A DNA stretch of 64,000 bases from Arthrobacter sp. SLBN-112 (GTDB lineage: Bacteria > Actinomycetota > Actinomycetes > Actinomycetales > Micrococcaceae): positions 1,550,001 through 1,614,000 of the forward strand of contig NZ_JAUSXY010000001.1 in NCBI RefSeq assembly GCF_030944625.1, in the 5' to 3' direction. Shown here in pieces: positions 131 through 5,706 of this stretch. The notes below the pieces were generated by a model. It was not told the origin of the DNA, did no database searches, and saw only the letters and a program-made list of their open reading frames with translations. Made by a program: the position numbers and the translations under genes. How positions within the stretch are numbered: position 1 is the first letter of the stretch; each line of letters opens with the position of its first letter.

Positions 131-1396
131 TCAGCTGGCTTTCGCCGCCGCTGCCGCGCGTTTCTGGGCCAGCTTGATTTCAAGGATCGCGTCCAAAGCC
201 TGCTGGACCCGATCCTGGGCGCCTGCCGCGGCGAAGGCCTTCTGGGCTTCCTCCAGGTGCACCAGGGCTTCGTCGGTGTCACCGGCGGCCTTGAGTGACT
301 TGCCCAGGAGGAGTGAGACCTCACCGGCTGTGTGCTTGGCGAGGCTTGCACGCTCGGCGTGGATTTCGCGGAGTTTCTCGACGGCGGCCACAATGTCCCC
401 GGTCAGGTACAGCCAGCGGGCGCGGATGAACGCCACCTCCAGCTCGTCGGACTTGTTTCCACCCACGATCGACAATGCCAACTCGGCACGTTCGATCGCG
501 GACAGGGTTTCCGGCTCGACGATTCCGGAGGACAGCCGCACCGCTGCTGATGCCTTGTTGAACCGGGCCCACAGCCCGATGTCATTGGCGGGGGAGAGCA
601 GCCGGGCTGCCCGTTCGTGGTGCTTCACGCCCTCCGTGTAGTCGTGCCGCATGAAGGCGACGTTTCCCACCACCCAGGCCACCTCGCCGGCGAGCTGGCT
701 CATCGAGAATTCGTCCACATGCTCGATCATGGCCTGGCAATACCCCCAGGCTTCATCAAGCCGTCCGCTTTCGGCCAGCGCACCGATCAGGGCGTGGTGG
801 GCGTTGATGATCAGGGTTGATCCCTTGGGCAGCTGCCTGCACAGGTCCACCGCCTGGATTCCCTGGTCCACGGCGAGGCTCAGCTGGCCTTGCCCCTGGT
901 AGATTCCAGCGAGCATCTGGTGTGCCCGGACGGCAAGCCCTGCCGATTCCCTGGCCATCGGATGCTCCAGCAGGTGCTGCATGATCTTTTGGGCTTCCCG
1001 CCAGTTGCCCTGCTTGATAAGGCACTCGGCCTGCATGTACGTCATGTTCCACCACGCACTGGTGTTCCGCCCCTCGAGGGCGATCTTCGCGGCCGTGGCC
1101 GCGTGGCTTGCCGCCAAGGGGTAATCGCGCAGGTCCCACGCCTGCCGGGCGTAGAGGCCGGCCAGTACGTATTCGGCGTCGCTGACGGAAATGGGTTGGC
1201 TCCAGGCCTCCAAGGCCTTCGGCGCCAGCTCCAGCCTGCGCGCCAGTTCCTCGATAACTTCCGCGGTCGGTTCGCGCCGGCCGGTTTCCAGCAGCGAAAT
1301 ATAGCTTGGTGAGTACAGGTCCTTGCCCAGTTCGGCCTGTGTCAGTCCGCGCTCAAGGCGCTCCGCGCGGAGCTTTTCTCCGAACCCGTTGCCCAC
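131..1396 (-). CDS. HTH-XRE / TPR transcriptional regulator, RRNPP-like peptide receptor candidate
   Basis: This is a 421-residue cytosolic regulator. Residues about 4-60 form an XRE helix-turn-helix (GLTQAELG, then SPSYISLLETGRREP). Residues about 75-410 are helical repeats of TPR type (AAKIALEGR, AECLIKQGNWREAQ, ALIGALAESGRLDEA, LLGKSLKAAGDTDEA). I chose the GTG at 1396 because AAGGAGG sits six bases upstream; a longer ATG frame from 1477 would bury that site. The size and domain order match Firmicute RRNPP receptors such as NprR and PlcR, which bind re-imported pheromones through their TPRs. The divergent gene encodes a small secreted peptide with a duplicated octapeptide, the expected partner. 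Ligand binding is inference. A stand-alone XRE-TPR regulator with an unrelated neighbour is the alternative. Confidence 0.85.
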   Translation of the reverse strand: MGNGFGEKLRAERLERGLTQAELGKDLYSPSYISLLETGRREPTAEVIEELARRLELAPKALEAWSQPISVSDAEYVLAGLYARQAWDLRDYPLAASHAATAAKIALEGRNTSAWWNMTYMQAECLIKQGNWREAQKIMQHLLEHPMARESAGLAVRAHQMLAGIYQGQGQLSLAVDQGIQAVDLCRQLPKGSTLIINAHHALIGALAESGRLDEAWGYCQAMIEHVDEFSMSQLAGEVAWVVGNVAFMRHDYTEGVKHHERAARLLSPANDIGLWARFNKASAAVRLSSGIVEPETLSAIERAELALSIVGGNKSDELEVAFIRARWLYLTGDIVAAVEKLREIHAERASLAKHTAGEVSLLLGKSLKAAGDTDEALVHLEEAQKAFAAAGAQDRVQQALDAILEIKLAQKRAAAAAKAS

Positions 1397-1434
1397 GCGT
1401 ATCCTCCTTTTGGACAAGTGGGGCTGCTGGATGC

Positions 1435-1474
1435 TTGACAGCCCCTGTGGAAAATATTTTACAATGTGTGTCAA
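1435..1474. promoter_or_regulatory. Symmetrical divergent control region between regulator and peptide gene
   Basis: TTGACA (1435-1440) and its inverted copy TGTCAA (1469-1474) flank 28 bases that include the palindrome AAAATATTTT (1451-1460), nearly co-centred with the outer pair. On the plus strand TTGACA is followed after 19 bases by TACAAT (1460-1465), a plausible though long-spaced promoter for the peptide gene. The inverted TTGACA faces the regulator gene, but I see no well-spaced -10 for it. The symmetry would suit an operator for the regulator itself. Confidence 0.5.
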
Positions 1475-1525
1475 CAAGGACAGTGCTGGCTTTGTAACGA
1501 ATCCGACTCGTATTGAGGAACTTAT

Positions 1526-1756
1526 ATGTTCAAGAAGATCGCAACCGCGGCCGTCCTGGCCGGGGCCCTGGCTTTTTCCGCGGCAGCTCCGGCTGTCCTG
1601 GCCTCAGGCTCCGTCGCCGATAATTCGAGTGTGTCGGTAGCAGTAGGCAACTGGCCTGACCCCGCCTCCGCAAAGGTGAAGAAGGACAAGAGCACCAGCA
1701 CGACTACTACTACTACTGTCACCACGTACGTGGGCAACTGGCCTGATCCTGCATAA
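1526..1756 (+). CDS. Small secreted pro-peptide with duplicated VGNWPDPA, putative signalling peptide precursor
   Basis: This is a 76-residue protein. Residues 1-26 are a Sec signal peptide: MFKK, a hydrophobic Ala/Leu core, and a V-L-A cleavage box before Ser27. The mature part of about 50 residues has the octapeptide VGNWPDPA at 40-47 and again at 69-76, the exact C-terminus. Between them lie a lysine-rich stretch (KVKKDK) and a threonine run. GAGGAA (1515-1520) precedes the ATG by five bases, and a strong terminator follows, so this is a compact monocistronic unit. Precursors with a Sec signal and a short repeated or C-terminal peptide are the hallmark of Phr/NprX/PapR-type pheromones. Neighbour and architecture suggest an extracellular signal read by the divergent HTH-TPR protein. 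I do not recognise the peptide; a secreted structural peptide remains possible. Confidence 0.85.
   Translation: MFKKIATAAVLAGALAFSAAAPAVLASGSVADNSSVSVAVGNWPDPASAKVKKDKSTSTTTTTTVTTYVGNWPDPA
1643..1753 (+). repeat. Two copies of the VGNWPDPA-encoding sequence plus an ACT microsatellite
   Basis: The copies are 1643-1666 and 1730-1753. Thirteen central bases (GGCAACTGGCCTGA) are shared exactly and the other differences are silent third positions. Between them five in-frame ACT codons (1703-1717) encode threonine and could expand or contract by slippage without changing frame. Confidence 0.9.
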
Positions 1757-1781
1757 ACAGCTTCCTCACCAGGAGGCGAGG

Positions 1782-1811
1782 ATGGCCCCGGAGCAGTTGC
1801 TCCGGGGCCAT
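1782..1811 (+). terminator. Rho-independent terminator of the peptide gene
   Basis: A perfect 13-base-pair stem (1782-1794 with 1799-1811) around the tetraloop AGTT is followed by TCCTTTT. It lies 26 bases after the peptide stop codon. Confidence 0.9.
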
Positions 1812-1879
1812 TCCTTTTAAGGAACGGTACCTTTCTGGTGGCGGTTTCCGGTGGGGGCCGTAACCAAATAGAGATACGG

Positions 1880-2074: not shown

Positions 2075-3901
2075 TTAGACCAGGGAATCCTTCCATGCCC
2101 CGTGCAGGTCCGCGAAGCGGCCGCCGCCGCCGATCAGTTCCTCGGGCGTGCCGTCCTCCACGATCCGGCCGTCGTGCACCACCAGCACCCTGTCGGCCGT
2201 TTCAACCGTGGACAACCGGTGCGCGATGATCAGCGCCGTCCTGCGCGCAGCCTCCGTCCCGGCGAGCAGGCGGGCCAGCCCGGCCTGCACCAGCCGTTCC
2301 GACGGGATGTCCAGGGACGACGTGGCCTCGTCCAGGATCAGCACAGCCGGCCGCGCCAGGAACGCCCGGGCGAAGCTGATCAGCTGCCGCTGCCCGGAGG
2401 AAACCCTGCCGCCGCGTTTGTTGACGTCGGTGTCGTAGCCTTCGGGGAGTTCCAGGATGAAGTCGTGCGCCCCGACGGCCTTCGCGGCTTCCTCGATCTC
2501 GGCACGCGTTGCTTCCGGCCGGCCGAGTGCGATGTTGTCGGCCACCGAGCCGCTGAACAGGAAAGCTTCCTGGGTGACCATGACGATGTTCCTGCGCAGG
2601 TCGGTGGTGGCCAGGTCGCGGAGGTCCACGCCGTCCAAGGTCAGGTTTCCCGACGTGACGTCGTAGAACCGGGCGATGAGTTTGGCCAGGGTGGACTTGC
2701 CGGCACCGGTCTGTCCCACCAGGGCAACTGTTTGCCCGGCCGGGATACGCAGGTTCAGCAGGGGTACCACCACGGGCCCGTCGCCGTAGCGGAATTCCAC
2801 GTCCTTGAAGTCGATGCGCCCGGTGGCTTCGGGAAGCGGGACCGGGTTCTTCGGCGGCCGGACCGTGGGTACCTCTTCGAGGAGCCCGGACACCTTTTCA
2901 AGGGCGGCCTGCGCGCTCTGGAACGAGTTGTAGAACATGGCCATCTGGTCCACGGGCTGGAAGAACCGCTTGGTGGAGAGGATGAGGCCTAGGAGCACGC
3001 CCACTGCCAGGTCTCCGCCCAGTACCCGGAATCCGCCGAACAGCAGCACCACAGCCACGCAAACGTTGCCGATCAGCACCAGGCCCGGCTGGAAGATGCC
3101 GTTGAGGTTGATGGACCGGACGGTGACCAGGCGGTAGTTTTCGGCGAGGTCTCCGTAGGTCTGGGAGTTTTCCTTCTCCTTGCGGAAGGCCTTGACCGCG
3201 CGGATGCCGGTCATGGTTTCCACGAAGTGCACGATCAGCCGTGCCGAAACCACCCTTGATTCGCGGAAGGCGATCTGGGAATGCTTCTGGTACCAGCGGG
3301 CCAGGAAGAACATGGGCACGCCGGCGGCCAGGACCAGCAGGCCGCTGCGCCAGTCCAGGGCAAAGATGGTGGCGGCGGTGAACGCCATGAAGAGCATCCC
3401 CGAGGCCAGCGAACTGACGCCGGAATCGAGGAGCTCGCGCAACGCCTCCAGGTCCGAGGTCTGGCGGGCAATGATCCGGCCGGACGTGTACTTCTCGTGG
3501 AACTCCAGGCTGAGCCGCTGGGTATGCCGGAAGACACGGACGCGCAGGTCCAGCAGCATGGCCTGGCTCAGCCGCGCCGTGGAGGTGACATACAGGGCGG
3601 TGAGGCCTGCCGTCGCGATGGCCGCCAGAAGGTAGGCGACGCCGGTAAACACCAGCGGGAGGTTGTCCCCGGACCGGAGGGCCGGGAGTGCATGGTCGAT
3701 CCCGAAAGCGATCAGTGCCGGGCCGGCCACCCGGGCTGCCTGGGAAAGGACCACCATGGCGATGGTCAGCCAGAACCGTACCCGCACCGGCCGGATCAGC
3801 GACCCCAGCAAGGCGAGCGACCGTCGTCGAACCGCCCTGCTGTCACTCTTGCTCAGGTGGGCGTTGTCCTCGTTGGCGGTGCCGAACGTTGCCGTGCTCA
3901 T
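2075..3901 (-). CDS. ABC exporter half-transporter with catalytically normal ATPase site (subunit B)
   Basis: This 608-residue membrane protein has six transmembrane helices (about 35-330) followed by a nucleotide-binding domain. Walker A is GQTGAGKS with Lys402, the Q-loop is MVTQEAFLF, and Walker B is LILDE with the catalytic Glu525. The switch histidine lies in [10 protein letters not shown]. The signature motif is VSSGQ instead of LSGGQ. Its ATG overlaps the stop of the upstream half-transporter in an ATGA, so the two are translationally coupled and very probably form a heterodimer. An altered signature here, paired with the altered Walker B of the partner, builds one degenerate ATP site, as in TM287/288- and BmrCD-type exporters. 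The substrate is unknown; lipids, drugs or peptides are all possible. Confidence 0.92.
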
Positions 3902-5706
3902 CGGGTCACTTCCTCTGCCTGGTCCTCAAGCGCGGACAGTTCGGAGTCAAGGTCCCGCGGCTCACGGTCCAGGCTGGCGATGACGTACCGGTAGTGCTGG
4001 TTGCGGGCCAGCAGTTCCGTGTGCGTGCCGACGGCGGTGATACGGCCGTCCTCCAGCAGTGCCACCCGGTCGGCCAGGGCCACCGTGGACGGCCGGTGGG
4101 CCACGATCAGGGTGGTGGTGTCCTTGAGCACCTCGCGGAGGCGGGCTTCCACCAGTTCCTCGGTGTGGACGTCCAGGGCGGAGAGGGGATCATCCAGGAC
4201 CAGGACACGTGGACGGGCGGCGATGGCGCGTGCCAGGGCAATGCGCTGGCGCTGGCCGCCGGACAAGCTCAGGCCTTCCTCGCCGATCAGCGTGTCCACG
4301 CCCTGTGGCAGGGAATGGGAGAAATGCGCCTGCGCCACGTCCAAGGCCTCCTCCAGGACCTCGTCGCTGCGTACCGGCGCGCCGAGCAGGACGTTGTCCC
4401 GCACGGAATTGGAGAAGAGCGTAGTGTCCTCGAACGCCACCCCGACGATCCTGCGCAGTTCCTCGACGTCGAAGTCGCGGATGTCCACTCCATCGATGCT
4501 GATGGTACCGTCCGTGACGTCGTAGAGGCGGGGGACCAGCTGGATGAGCGCGCTCTTGCCGCTGCCGGTGATGCCCACCAGGGCCATGGTTTCGCCGGGC
4601 CGCACCTCAAGGTTGATGTCCTTGAGGATCGGTTTGTCCGGCGCGTCCTCAAAGGCGAACGTTGCGTTTTCGAAGCGCAGCGCGCCTGCCAGTTCGCCCG
4701 GGCGGCGGGGTTCGGCGGGGCTGGCGATGGTGTTCTGCGTATCCATCACTTCGTAGTGGCGGTCGACGGCGGTCTTGGCCGTGAGTGCCATGGCGAGCAG
4801 CATGCCGGAGAATTCCACGGGCGAGGCGATGACGGCGGCCGTTGCGAAGAACGCCACCAGGGAGCCGATGCTCAGCTGGCCGCTGGCGCACAGCATGACG
4901 CCCACCACCAGGCCGGATCCCAGCGCGAGTTCGGGGAGCAGGGTGACCACCATGGTGAACGTGGCCTGGTGGCGTGCCTTCTCGATTTCCGTCTGGCGCA
5001 GTTCCTCGGCTTGTTCGTTGAAATTCTCGAGGGCTTCACGGCTGCGGCCAAACGCCTTGAGCACGCGGATGCCGTGGACCGATTCCTCCACCGTGGTGGC
5101 GAGGTCGCCTGCCTGGTCCTGGCTGCGCCGCGCCACTTTGCTGAACCGGGTGCGGAACCGGAAGCTGTTGATCGTGATGGGCACGGCGGCGGCCAGGAAA
5201 ATCAGCGCCAGCTGCCAGCTCATGGCGAACATGGCCACGATCCCGATAATCACGGTGAGGGTAGTGACCACCAGCATGATGGCGCCGAAGGCCATCCACC
5301 GGCGGAGGAAGTTCAAGTCCGTCATGGCCCTGGACAGCAGCTGGCCCGAACCCCAGCGGTCGTGGAAGGAGACGGTCAATTCCTGCAGGTGGTCGTAGAG
5401 CGAGACCCGCATCCTGGTTTCCACCGTGGTGGCGGGGTTGATGACAAACTGCCGGCGGAGCGCCACCAGCCCGGCCTCGGCGATGCCCAGCAGCAGGATG
5501 ACGCCGGCGGAAATCCACACCCCGTCCGTGGTAGCCCCCGGCTGCAATGCCGTATTGACCAGGACCCGCAGTACCTGGGGGATGGTCAGGGCAACGATAC
5601 TTGCCGCCAGCGCACAGAGAAGCCCCAGCAAAAGCCGGGGGATGATGGGCCGGACGTGCGGATAAAGACGGCTGATTGATCTGAAAAATGGAGTCTGCTT
5701 GGCCAT
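3898..5706 (-). CDS. ABC exporter half-transporter with degenerate ATPase site (subunit A)
   Basis: This 602-residue type IV ABC exporter subunit has six transmembrane helices in the N-terminal half. Walker A is GITGSGKS with Lys384, and the signature LSGGQRQR is canonical. Walker B reads [11 protein letters not shown], so the catalytic glutamate is Asp506, and the Q-loop glutamine is replaced (VAFEDTTLF). The partner gene overlaps it by four bases and supplies the normal catalytic residue. The pair would export a substrate outward across the membrane using one active and one degenerate site. GAGAAG lies upstream of the ATG. No regulator or resistance gene beside the pair hints at the cargo. 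Confidence 0.92.

Follow-up and report, generated by a model that had tools for sequence, protein, structure and literature searches.

Could a small gene that encodes a twice-repeated peptide motif in Arthrobacter sp. SLBN-112, together with the regulator gene divergently transcribed beside it, specify a signal and its intracellular receptor? The two genes lie in a 64,000-nucleotide stretch of DNA, here called the window, which spans bases 1550001-1614000 of a genome assembled as one contig of 4.39 Mb. A sequence-only reading of this stretch had described a 421-residue HTH-XRE/TPR regulator divergent from a 76-residue peptide open reading frame (ORF), and had likened the pair to the RRNPP systems of Firmicutes. 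Both ORFs and their domains were confirmed, as was the presence of VGNWPDPA twice in the translated precursor, once at its exact C terminus. The start codon of the precursor is 129 bp from that of the regulator, and the features on which the argument depends are as follows.

131 to 1396, minus strand: HTH (XRE) and TPR regulator, the proposed intracellular peptide receptor, 421 aa, with a GTG start at 1396
1435 to 1474, unstranded: promoter/operator-like element TTGACA-N19-TACAAT-N3-TGTCAA, containing a TTGACA/TGTCAA inverted repeat, defined by conservation
1526 to 1756, plus strand: precursor of 76 aa with a signal-peptide-like N terminus and two VGNWPDPA copies
1643 to 1666, plus strand: first VGNWPDPA copy, residues 40 to 47
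1730 to 1753, plus strand: second VGNWPDPA copy, residues 69 to 76, residue 76 being the last

We consider it probable that these genes form a peptide-signaling pair. The precursor would be exported by a Sec-type signal peptide, and the repeated unit, roughly [VI]GNWPDP[AM], would be excised by extracellular proteases and re-imported by an oligopeptide permease. Inside the cell, the TPR groove of the divergent HTH-TPR regulator would bind the peptide, and the regulator's activity at the shared TTGACA...TGTCAA element, which would control one or both genes, would change.

Close relatives provide the evidence that carries this proposal. We took the best 80 of 333 relatives, all named Arthrobacter, Pseudarthrobacter, or Paenarthrobacter loci with receptors 81 to 98% identical to that of the window; the nearest (98%) are Pseudarthrobacter and Arthrobacter strains. 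One way to refute the pairing, a peptide gene missing beside orthologous regulators, was run, and the divergent precursor was present beside the receptor in 80 of 80 named loci, with 127 to 149 bases from the receptor start to the end of the precursor ATG. The precursors hold 199 core copies, 196 of them GNWPDP and 3 GIWPDP, in 60 DNA spellings. When copies within one precursor were compared (176 pairs), the silent-site difference (pS) was 0.55 and the replacement difference (pN) only 0.0024. The spacers are variable in both length and sequence, so that a second possible refutation, an octapeptide less conserved than the rest of the protein, found instead a near-invariant core. Judged from these alignments, the GxWP motif is under strong purifying selection. 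Because the pair is kept in every named locus and its motif appears to be so constrained, we regard the observation as beyond chance.

The residue that follows WPDP is M in 176 copies, A in 18, and V in 5, and in 77 of the 199 copies the stop codon comes one residue past WPDP. The suggestion that VGNWPDPA is the signal motif was thus right about the repeat, which is real, and too generous about its extent, since the conserved core is narrower than the full octapeptide. With the pair universal in the named loci, the core conserved, and the spacers variable, the RRNPP-like reading, in which the regulator would be the receptor of a repeat-derived signal, is supported, and there is good computational support for a system that would work like RRNPP.

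The two proteins have properties consistent with these roles. The longest ORF of the regulator is 448 aa, with TTG as its upstream start codon. Its Pfam matches over cut-off are HTH_31 (1.2e-11), HTH_3 (3.4e-11), and TPR_12 (6.8e-9), and an AlphaFold2 model (predicted local distance difference test score, 90) shows an HTH and a helical TPR superhelix. The precursor begins MFKKIATAAVLAGALAFSAAAPAVLA and is signal-peptide-like as judged by charge and hydropathy; it matched no Pfam family and nothing over cut-off in NCBIfam. The sequence-only reading had proposed looking for an Opp-type importer, and the genome encodes eight SBP_bac_5 proteins over cut-off (Opp/Dpp-type binding proteins).

The divergent arrangement is also known for some rgg/shp pairs. 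In the accessible text of PMC10075063, RRNPP receptors are described as TPR proteins of 250 to 500 aa, often HTH-TPR, and their pro-peptides as 10 to 100 aa long, mostly with a Sec signal. In receptor size and domains (421 aa, HTH, TPR) and in the adjacent small pro-peptide gene (76 aa; 80 of 80 named loci), the pair resembles the RRNPP/RRNPPA systems (Rap, Rgg, NprR, PlcR, PrgX, and AimR). Those systems belong to Bacillota, whereas the host here is a member of Actinomycetota and the core is G-x-W-P. The sequence match to PlcR is weak (E 0.082) and covers the HTH part, and common descent with the Bacillota receptors is no more than a possibility. By fold, PlcR, Rap, and NprR were matched, but not above unrelated TPR proteins such as LGN.

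There are likenesses to particular systems as well. Phr-3T and Phr-105 likewise carry several identical or nearly identical pheromone copies per precursor with the rest unconserved; they have 1 to 4 copies, according to the available part of PMC11343458, compared with at least 8 in some GxWP precursors, and they differ in peptide and phylum. As far as the accessible text of PMC10518010 goes, the RopB system of SIP and the leaderless communication peptides (LCPs) pairs a TPR receptor with a very short leaderless ORF, preferably divergent, and most putative LCPs are 8 to 10 residues long. The precursor in the window, with its signal-like leader, does not belong to that class. Leaderless counterparts occur in other genera (below), and leadered and leaderless GxWP forms, unlike the LCPs, share a core type and a receptor tree.

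The intergenic element is the most conserved intergenic stretch in the 80 relatives, with the consensus CTTGACA...TTTTACAATGTATGTCAAC. By eye, a similar element precedes precursors whose receptors have identities as low as about 48%; none was seen, also by eye, before those of genus groups g10, g15, and g32 (here and below, g denotes a genus group, L a locus, and G a genome). We infer from the 19-base length of its spacer that the promoter may be an activated one. A wide regulon acting through this operator was considered and rejected, as a 21-mer search with up to 3 mismatches gave one site in the genome. A 17-mer search with up to 2 mismatches gave two sites, the pair's own and one with 2 mismatches, and the reversed control gave one. 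No strong operator-like site was found in the genome other than the pair's own promoter; the receptor may control the pair alone, act at weaker sites, or work by way of protein contacts.

How widely is the pair distributed? We found a receptor match at E<=1e-50 in 132 of 295 genomes of the family and the GNWPDP DNA pattern in 61 of 295, some of these by chance. A wider set of 112 receptors in 111 loci was picked among the matches listed plus nine loci from an order-wide search, and a receptor was scored as linked if a divergent ORF with GxWP lay -40 to +400 bp from it. By this measure 76 of the 112 receptors are linked (L156 is doubtful, and L087, with WIWPDS, was counted as negative); the same count was 1, 1, 1, and 2 for scrambled motifs and 1 on the opposite strand, where the stretch scanned was smaller. 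The 36 receptors without an adjacent GxWP ORF are distant ones or second paralogs. All 48 loci from L039 to L086 are positive, including L044, where a single copy is left before the stop, and L074, which has one intact and one degraded copy. The order-wide receptor search (149 genomes) found three receptors in two genomes outside the family, with a GxWP ORF only at L303; this locus, from a different family of the same order, has a receptor matching at 9e-71 and a divergent ORF with a signal-like leader and three GGSWPT copies. A class-wide search for multi-copy WP arrays was set aside: the triple pattern occurred in 61 of 345 genomes, but reversed controls match many genomes too. Among the strings it listed, which were read with their loci untranslated, a GxWP array was recognized only in G009, a genome of the same genus as the window.

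Family-wide, only G-x-W-P is kept, with D, N, or H usually next, and the core varies with receptor lineage (GNWPDP, GIWPDS, GDWPH, GNWPDR, GSWPT, GWWPN). The core of the window's own genus is [VIT]GNWPDP[AM], and that of g7, where the public names are Sinomonas, is AIGNWPDPM. Other cores are VGNWPDP[SATF] in g19, VGNWPDAV and VGNWPDAS in g28, VGDWPH in g17 (TTG start), PAVGNWPDRFYS in g15, VGIWPNS in L080, GNWPD[SGA] in L081, GNWPN in L085, PGIWPDS in L086, and VGEWPHG in L165. Linked precursors of g1, g7, g15, g17, g19, g28, and others have signal-peptide-like N termini and mostly several copies, the number per precursor ranging from 1 to at least 8. In g32 and g10 the linked precursors have no leader, are about 21 and 32 residues long, respectively, and end in the motif (VGDWPD, VGNWPD, or IGDWPHA[AD]), which recalls the RopB-associated peptides; the precursor ORF is missing from about half of the loci examined in g32.

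If the regulator binds the peptide, the variable position x might be expected to leave a trace in the TPR groove, whose positions we take to be 2, 5, 9, 12, and 13 (the assignment is approximate for some repeats). Conservation is higher in the A helices, on the concave side, than in the B helices (entropy, 1.56 versus 1.97; p 1e-4), and N245 and N280 are kept in 38 and 39 of 40 receptors, respectively. The three receptors with Ile-type cores (L080, L086, and L087) all have Trp285, with Gln, Gln, and His at residue 278 and Arg, Asn, and Asn at residue 124. The 27 Asn-type rows, many of them close relatives, have A (21), S (4), or D (2) at 285; R (22), N (2), A (2), or H (1) at 278; and E (21), S (4), V (1), or A (1) at 124. 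The two classes are separated by six columns, of which 124 and 285 are groove positions (p 0.10); restricting the comparison to HTH-TPR receptors gives seven such columns, three of them in the groove (124, 278, and 285; p 0.02). Pro at column 71 and Trp at column 285 are the only residues that all three Ile-type receptors share and no Asn-type row has. In the tree, L080 falls in a different lineage from L086/L087, and Trp285 accompanies Ile at x in both. The co-variation of motif and pocket that the sequence-only reading proposed to test, between peptide position x and groove residues, is suggestive but not decisive. L204, which has three GIWPDP copies and one GNWPDP copy, keeps Asn-type receptor residues and therefore argues against a strict peptide-receptor code.

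All ten of the precursor-less g24 receptors examined retain Trp285 (L088, L089, L091, L092, L096, L097, and L179-L182); L183, from another genus, lacks it. Receptors that keep Trp285 should therefore sense an Ile-type peptide encoded elsewhere. When GIWP[DN] followed by a restricted choice of codon was searched for in 23 g24 genomes, 20 matches came up, compared with 5 for the reversed pattern; two of the 20 lie within the linked precursor of G239, and most others look like chance frames. L345 (20 aa) and L353 (34 aa), from G192 and G263, have a good ribosome site and the common stretch SSGIWPDGT, and the receptors of these two genomes (L097 and L179) both have Trp285. L356, also from g24, is an 11-codon frame ending GIWPN. 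The prediction of unlinked Ile-type peptides in g24 thus came out in part, and the precursor-less Trp285 receptors are possible listeners to peptides such as those of L345 and L353. The 11 rows of the receptor tree that lack a linked precursor do not group together but are interspersed with rows that have one, and we therefore think that several losses of the linked precursor are likely; the tree statistic of one change compares two named groups only and ignores the other 30 rows.

Rap is a TPR receptor without an HTH, and NprR is one with an HTH. In a similar way, HTH-TPR members and an apparently HTH-less clade stand in one receptor tree, both beside GxWP peptides. The clade (support, 100/99) holds seven receptors, from L173, L174 (two), L175, L177, L301, and L307, and seems to lack the HTH, whose absence was judged from where the match starts (the starts are uncertain, and the Pfam scan without a match is for L301 only). 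A GxWP ORF lies opposite every member except the first L174 receptor, and the cores are GDWPN, GNWPG, GWWPN, GWWPH, and GYWPF. The likeness to Rap and NprR ends at the neighboring genes: a GGDEF-EAL gene is next to the receptor in L301 and L307, and a histidine-kinase gene precedes it in L175 and L307 (L174 and L177 are similar by eye). In L174 the two HTH-less TPR receptors are in tandem (1248-2273 and 2783-3823), with the GNWPG ORF in the gap and opposite the latter of the two; the tree interchanges the labels of these two rows, which leaves the clade unaffected.

GNWPDP also occurs away from receptors. Of at least 18 unlinked matches in g1 and g7, we fetched 17; 11 end one residue past GNWPDP, 5 more end within 5 to 10 residues, and L116 is the only one that does not end near it. 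Of six matches fetched from other genera, one ends one residue past or near GNWPDP. These small ORFs (L101-L108, L114, L115, L117-L120, L127, and L128) mostly have no signal peptide, although L120 looks signal-bearing; some repeat GNWPDP, and L115 has masked bases. Examples are MSSIGNWPDP[MIV] and MNRIGNWPDPM; MSSIGNWPDPM itself (L118) can be likened to the RopB-associated leaderless peptides. L103 and L127 combine GNWPDPM and GWWP[DN] cores in the same ORF. HTH-less-type receptor matches occur in both of their genomes (G244 and G123) as well, and the one examined from G123, L176, has SSIGWWPN. The exact DNA pattern was searched for in the window's own genome, and no unlinked GNWPDP was found there.

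Upstream of 11 of the 17 unlinked ORFs is a low-complexity open frame whose product, by eye, looks exported (the edge of the locus truncates some of them), and nine of those frames end in an octapeptide like FDPGSSPD. Rfam on five unlinked loci gave nothing at gathering score, and Pfam on five of the preceding frames gave only one sub-cut-off collagen match. As a separate observation, low-complexity, probably exported proteins ending exactly FDPGSSPD or FDPGSTPD (open frames of 286 to 459 codons, L314-L343) were recognized by a pattern present in 30 of 41 genus genomes (reversed control, 0), including the window's own at G000:C1 620766-620792 and 3963670-3963696. An unlinked GNWPDPM ORF follows the frame in five of the 30 loci that were read.

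These unlinked ORFs raise an alternative in which the ligand would be a cytosolic GxWP peptide, supplied by leaderless ORFs or by precursor kept or degraded inside the cell, and would report operon expression rather than cell density. Such intracellular self-signaling, which we judge unlikely, would explain short signal-less products such as that of L118, ending one residue past GNWPDP in 11 of 17 cases and following exported-looking frames in as many, and the leaderless linked precursors of g32 and g10. It sits poorly with the signal-peptide-like, mostly multi-copy linked precursors of g1, g7, g15, g17, g19, g28, and others, and a Firmicute leaderless peptide, SIP, is itself secreted and then re-imported, according to the available part of PMC10518010.

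To two further explanations we give very little weight. The precursor could be a structural protein of the cell wall, or a low-complexity one, that binds a surface ligand through its WPD repeats, and its adjacency to the regulator would then be ordinary autoregulation; the public names, where given, are indeed "hypothetical" or "low-complexity protein," but copy number runs from 1 to at least 8, some precursors are 21 aa long with a single C-terminal motif, and the same core stands beside HTH-less receptors. Equally improbable is a modified peptide, akin to a multi-core ribosomally synthesized and post-translationally modified peptide (RiPP), or an antimicrobial, with the regulator controlling only its synthesis. 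Multi-core precursors with variable spacers do resemble some RiPP precursors, but the neighbors of the pair in the window are tRNA-Pro and an ABC exporter pair, and no gene for a modifying enzyme was seen there (other genera were viewed unsystematically). Cores that vary with receptor lineage, and one core type shared with HTH-less receptors, also speak against it.

Extending the proposed signaling pair to the whole family, we tentatively put forward a large and old Micrococcaceae G-x-W-P language, a reading about which we are rather more doubtful than confident. Leadered, leaderless, and unlinked genes would feed the same receptors, some with and some without a DNA-binding domain; peptide-less receptors would hear the unlinked peptides, and two-core precursors would address two receptors. 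Since receptors of both kinds share the peptide class, transcription and cyclic di-GMP (c-di-GMP) enzymes would both be addressable.

The accessible text of PMC10075063 presents the signals of Actinomycetota as typically small molecules and treats RRNPP as a Bacillota system, and that of PMC4748050 names cyclic or modified peptides and butyrolactones as signals in Actinomycetota. A word search of the available parts of PMC9765709 and PMC12700828 found no mention of Actinobacteria. In the literature covered (no preprints and few subscription papers), we found neither a GxWP peptide nor an actinobacterial RRNPP system, and matches to the peptide strings were unrelated by title, in agreement with the earlier remark that no actinobacterial pheromone of this sequence was described. 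If the proposal is true, RRNPP-type intracellular peptide signaling extends to a second phylum, in common soil genera, and through the HTH-less receptors with GGDEF-EAL neighbors, peptide signals would be connected to c-di-GMP. A peptide-receptor family that is chromosomal, conserved, and specific to lineages would offer defined synthetic peptides for testing, and N, I, D, and W at one peptide position, set against groove residues such as 285, make a candidate natural specificity code.

A mobile-element origin was considered and rejected, as viral contigs held no full relative (one weak 61-residue HTH match) and the plasmid collection held none at all. The sequence-only reading had also given the unit its own strong terminator, and the following feature lies 3' of the precursor.

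1760 to 1816, plus strand: two hairpins, the second GC-rich and terminator-like, defined by folding energy (z -7.2)

Beyond the hairpin come tRNA-Pro on the opposite strand and then two ABC-transporter genes; these adjacent half-transporters (window 2075-5706) showed nothing tying them to the pair. A simple terminator scan did not list the hairpin, which is GC-rich and strong: the stretch 1755-1825 folds at -44.5 kcal/mol against a shuffled mean of -22.1.
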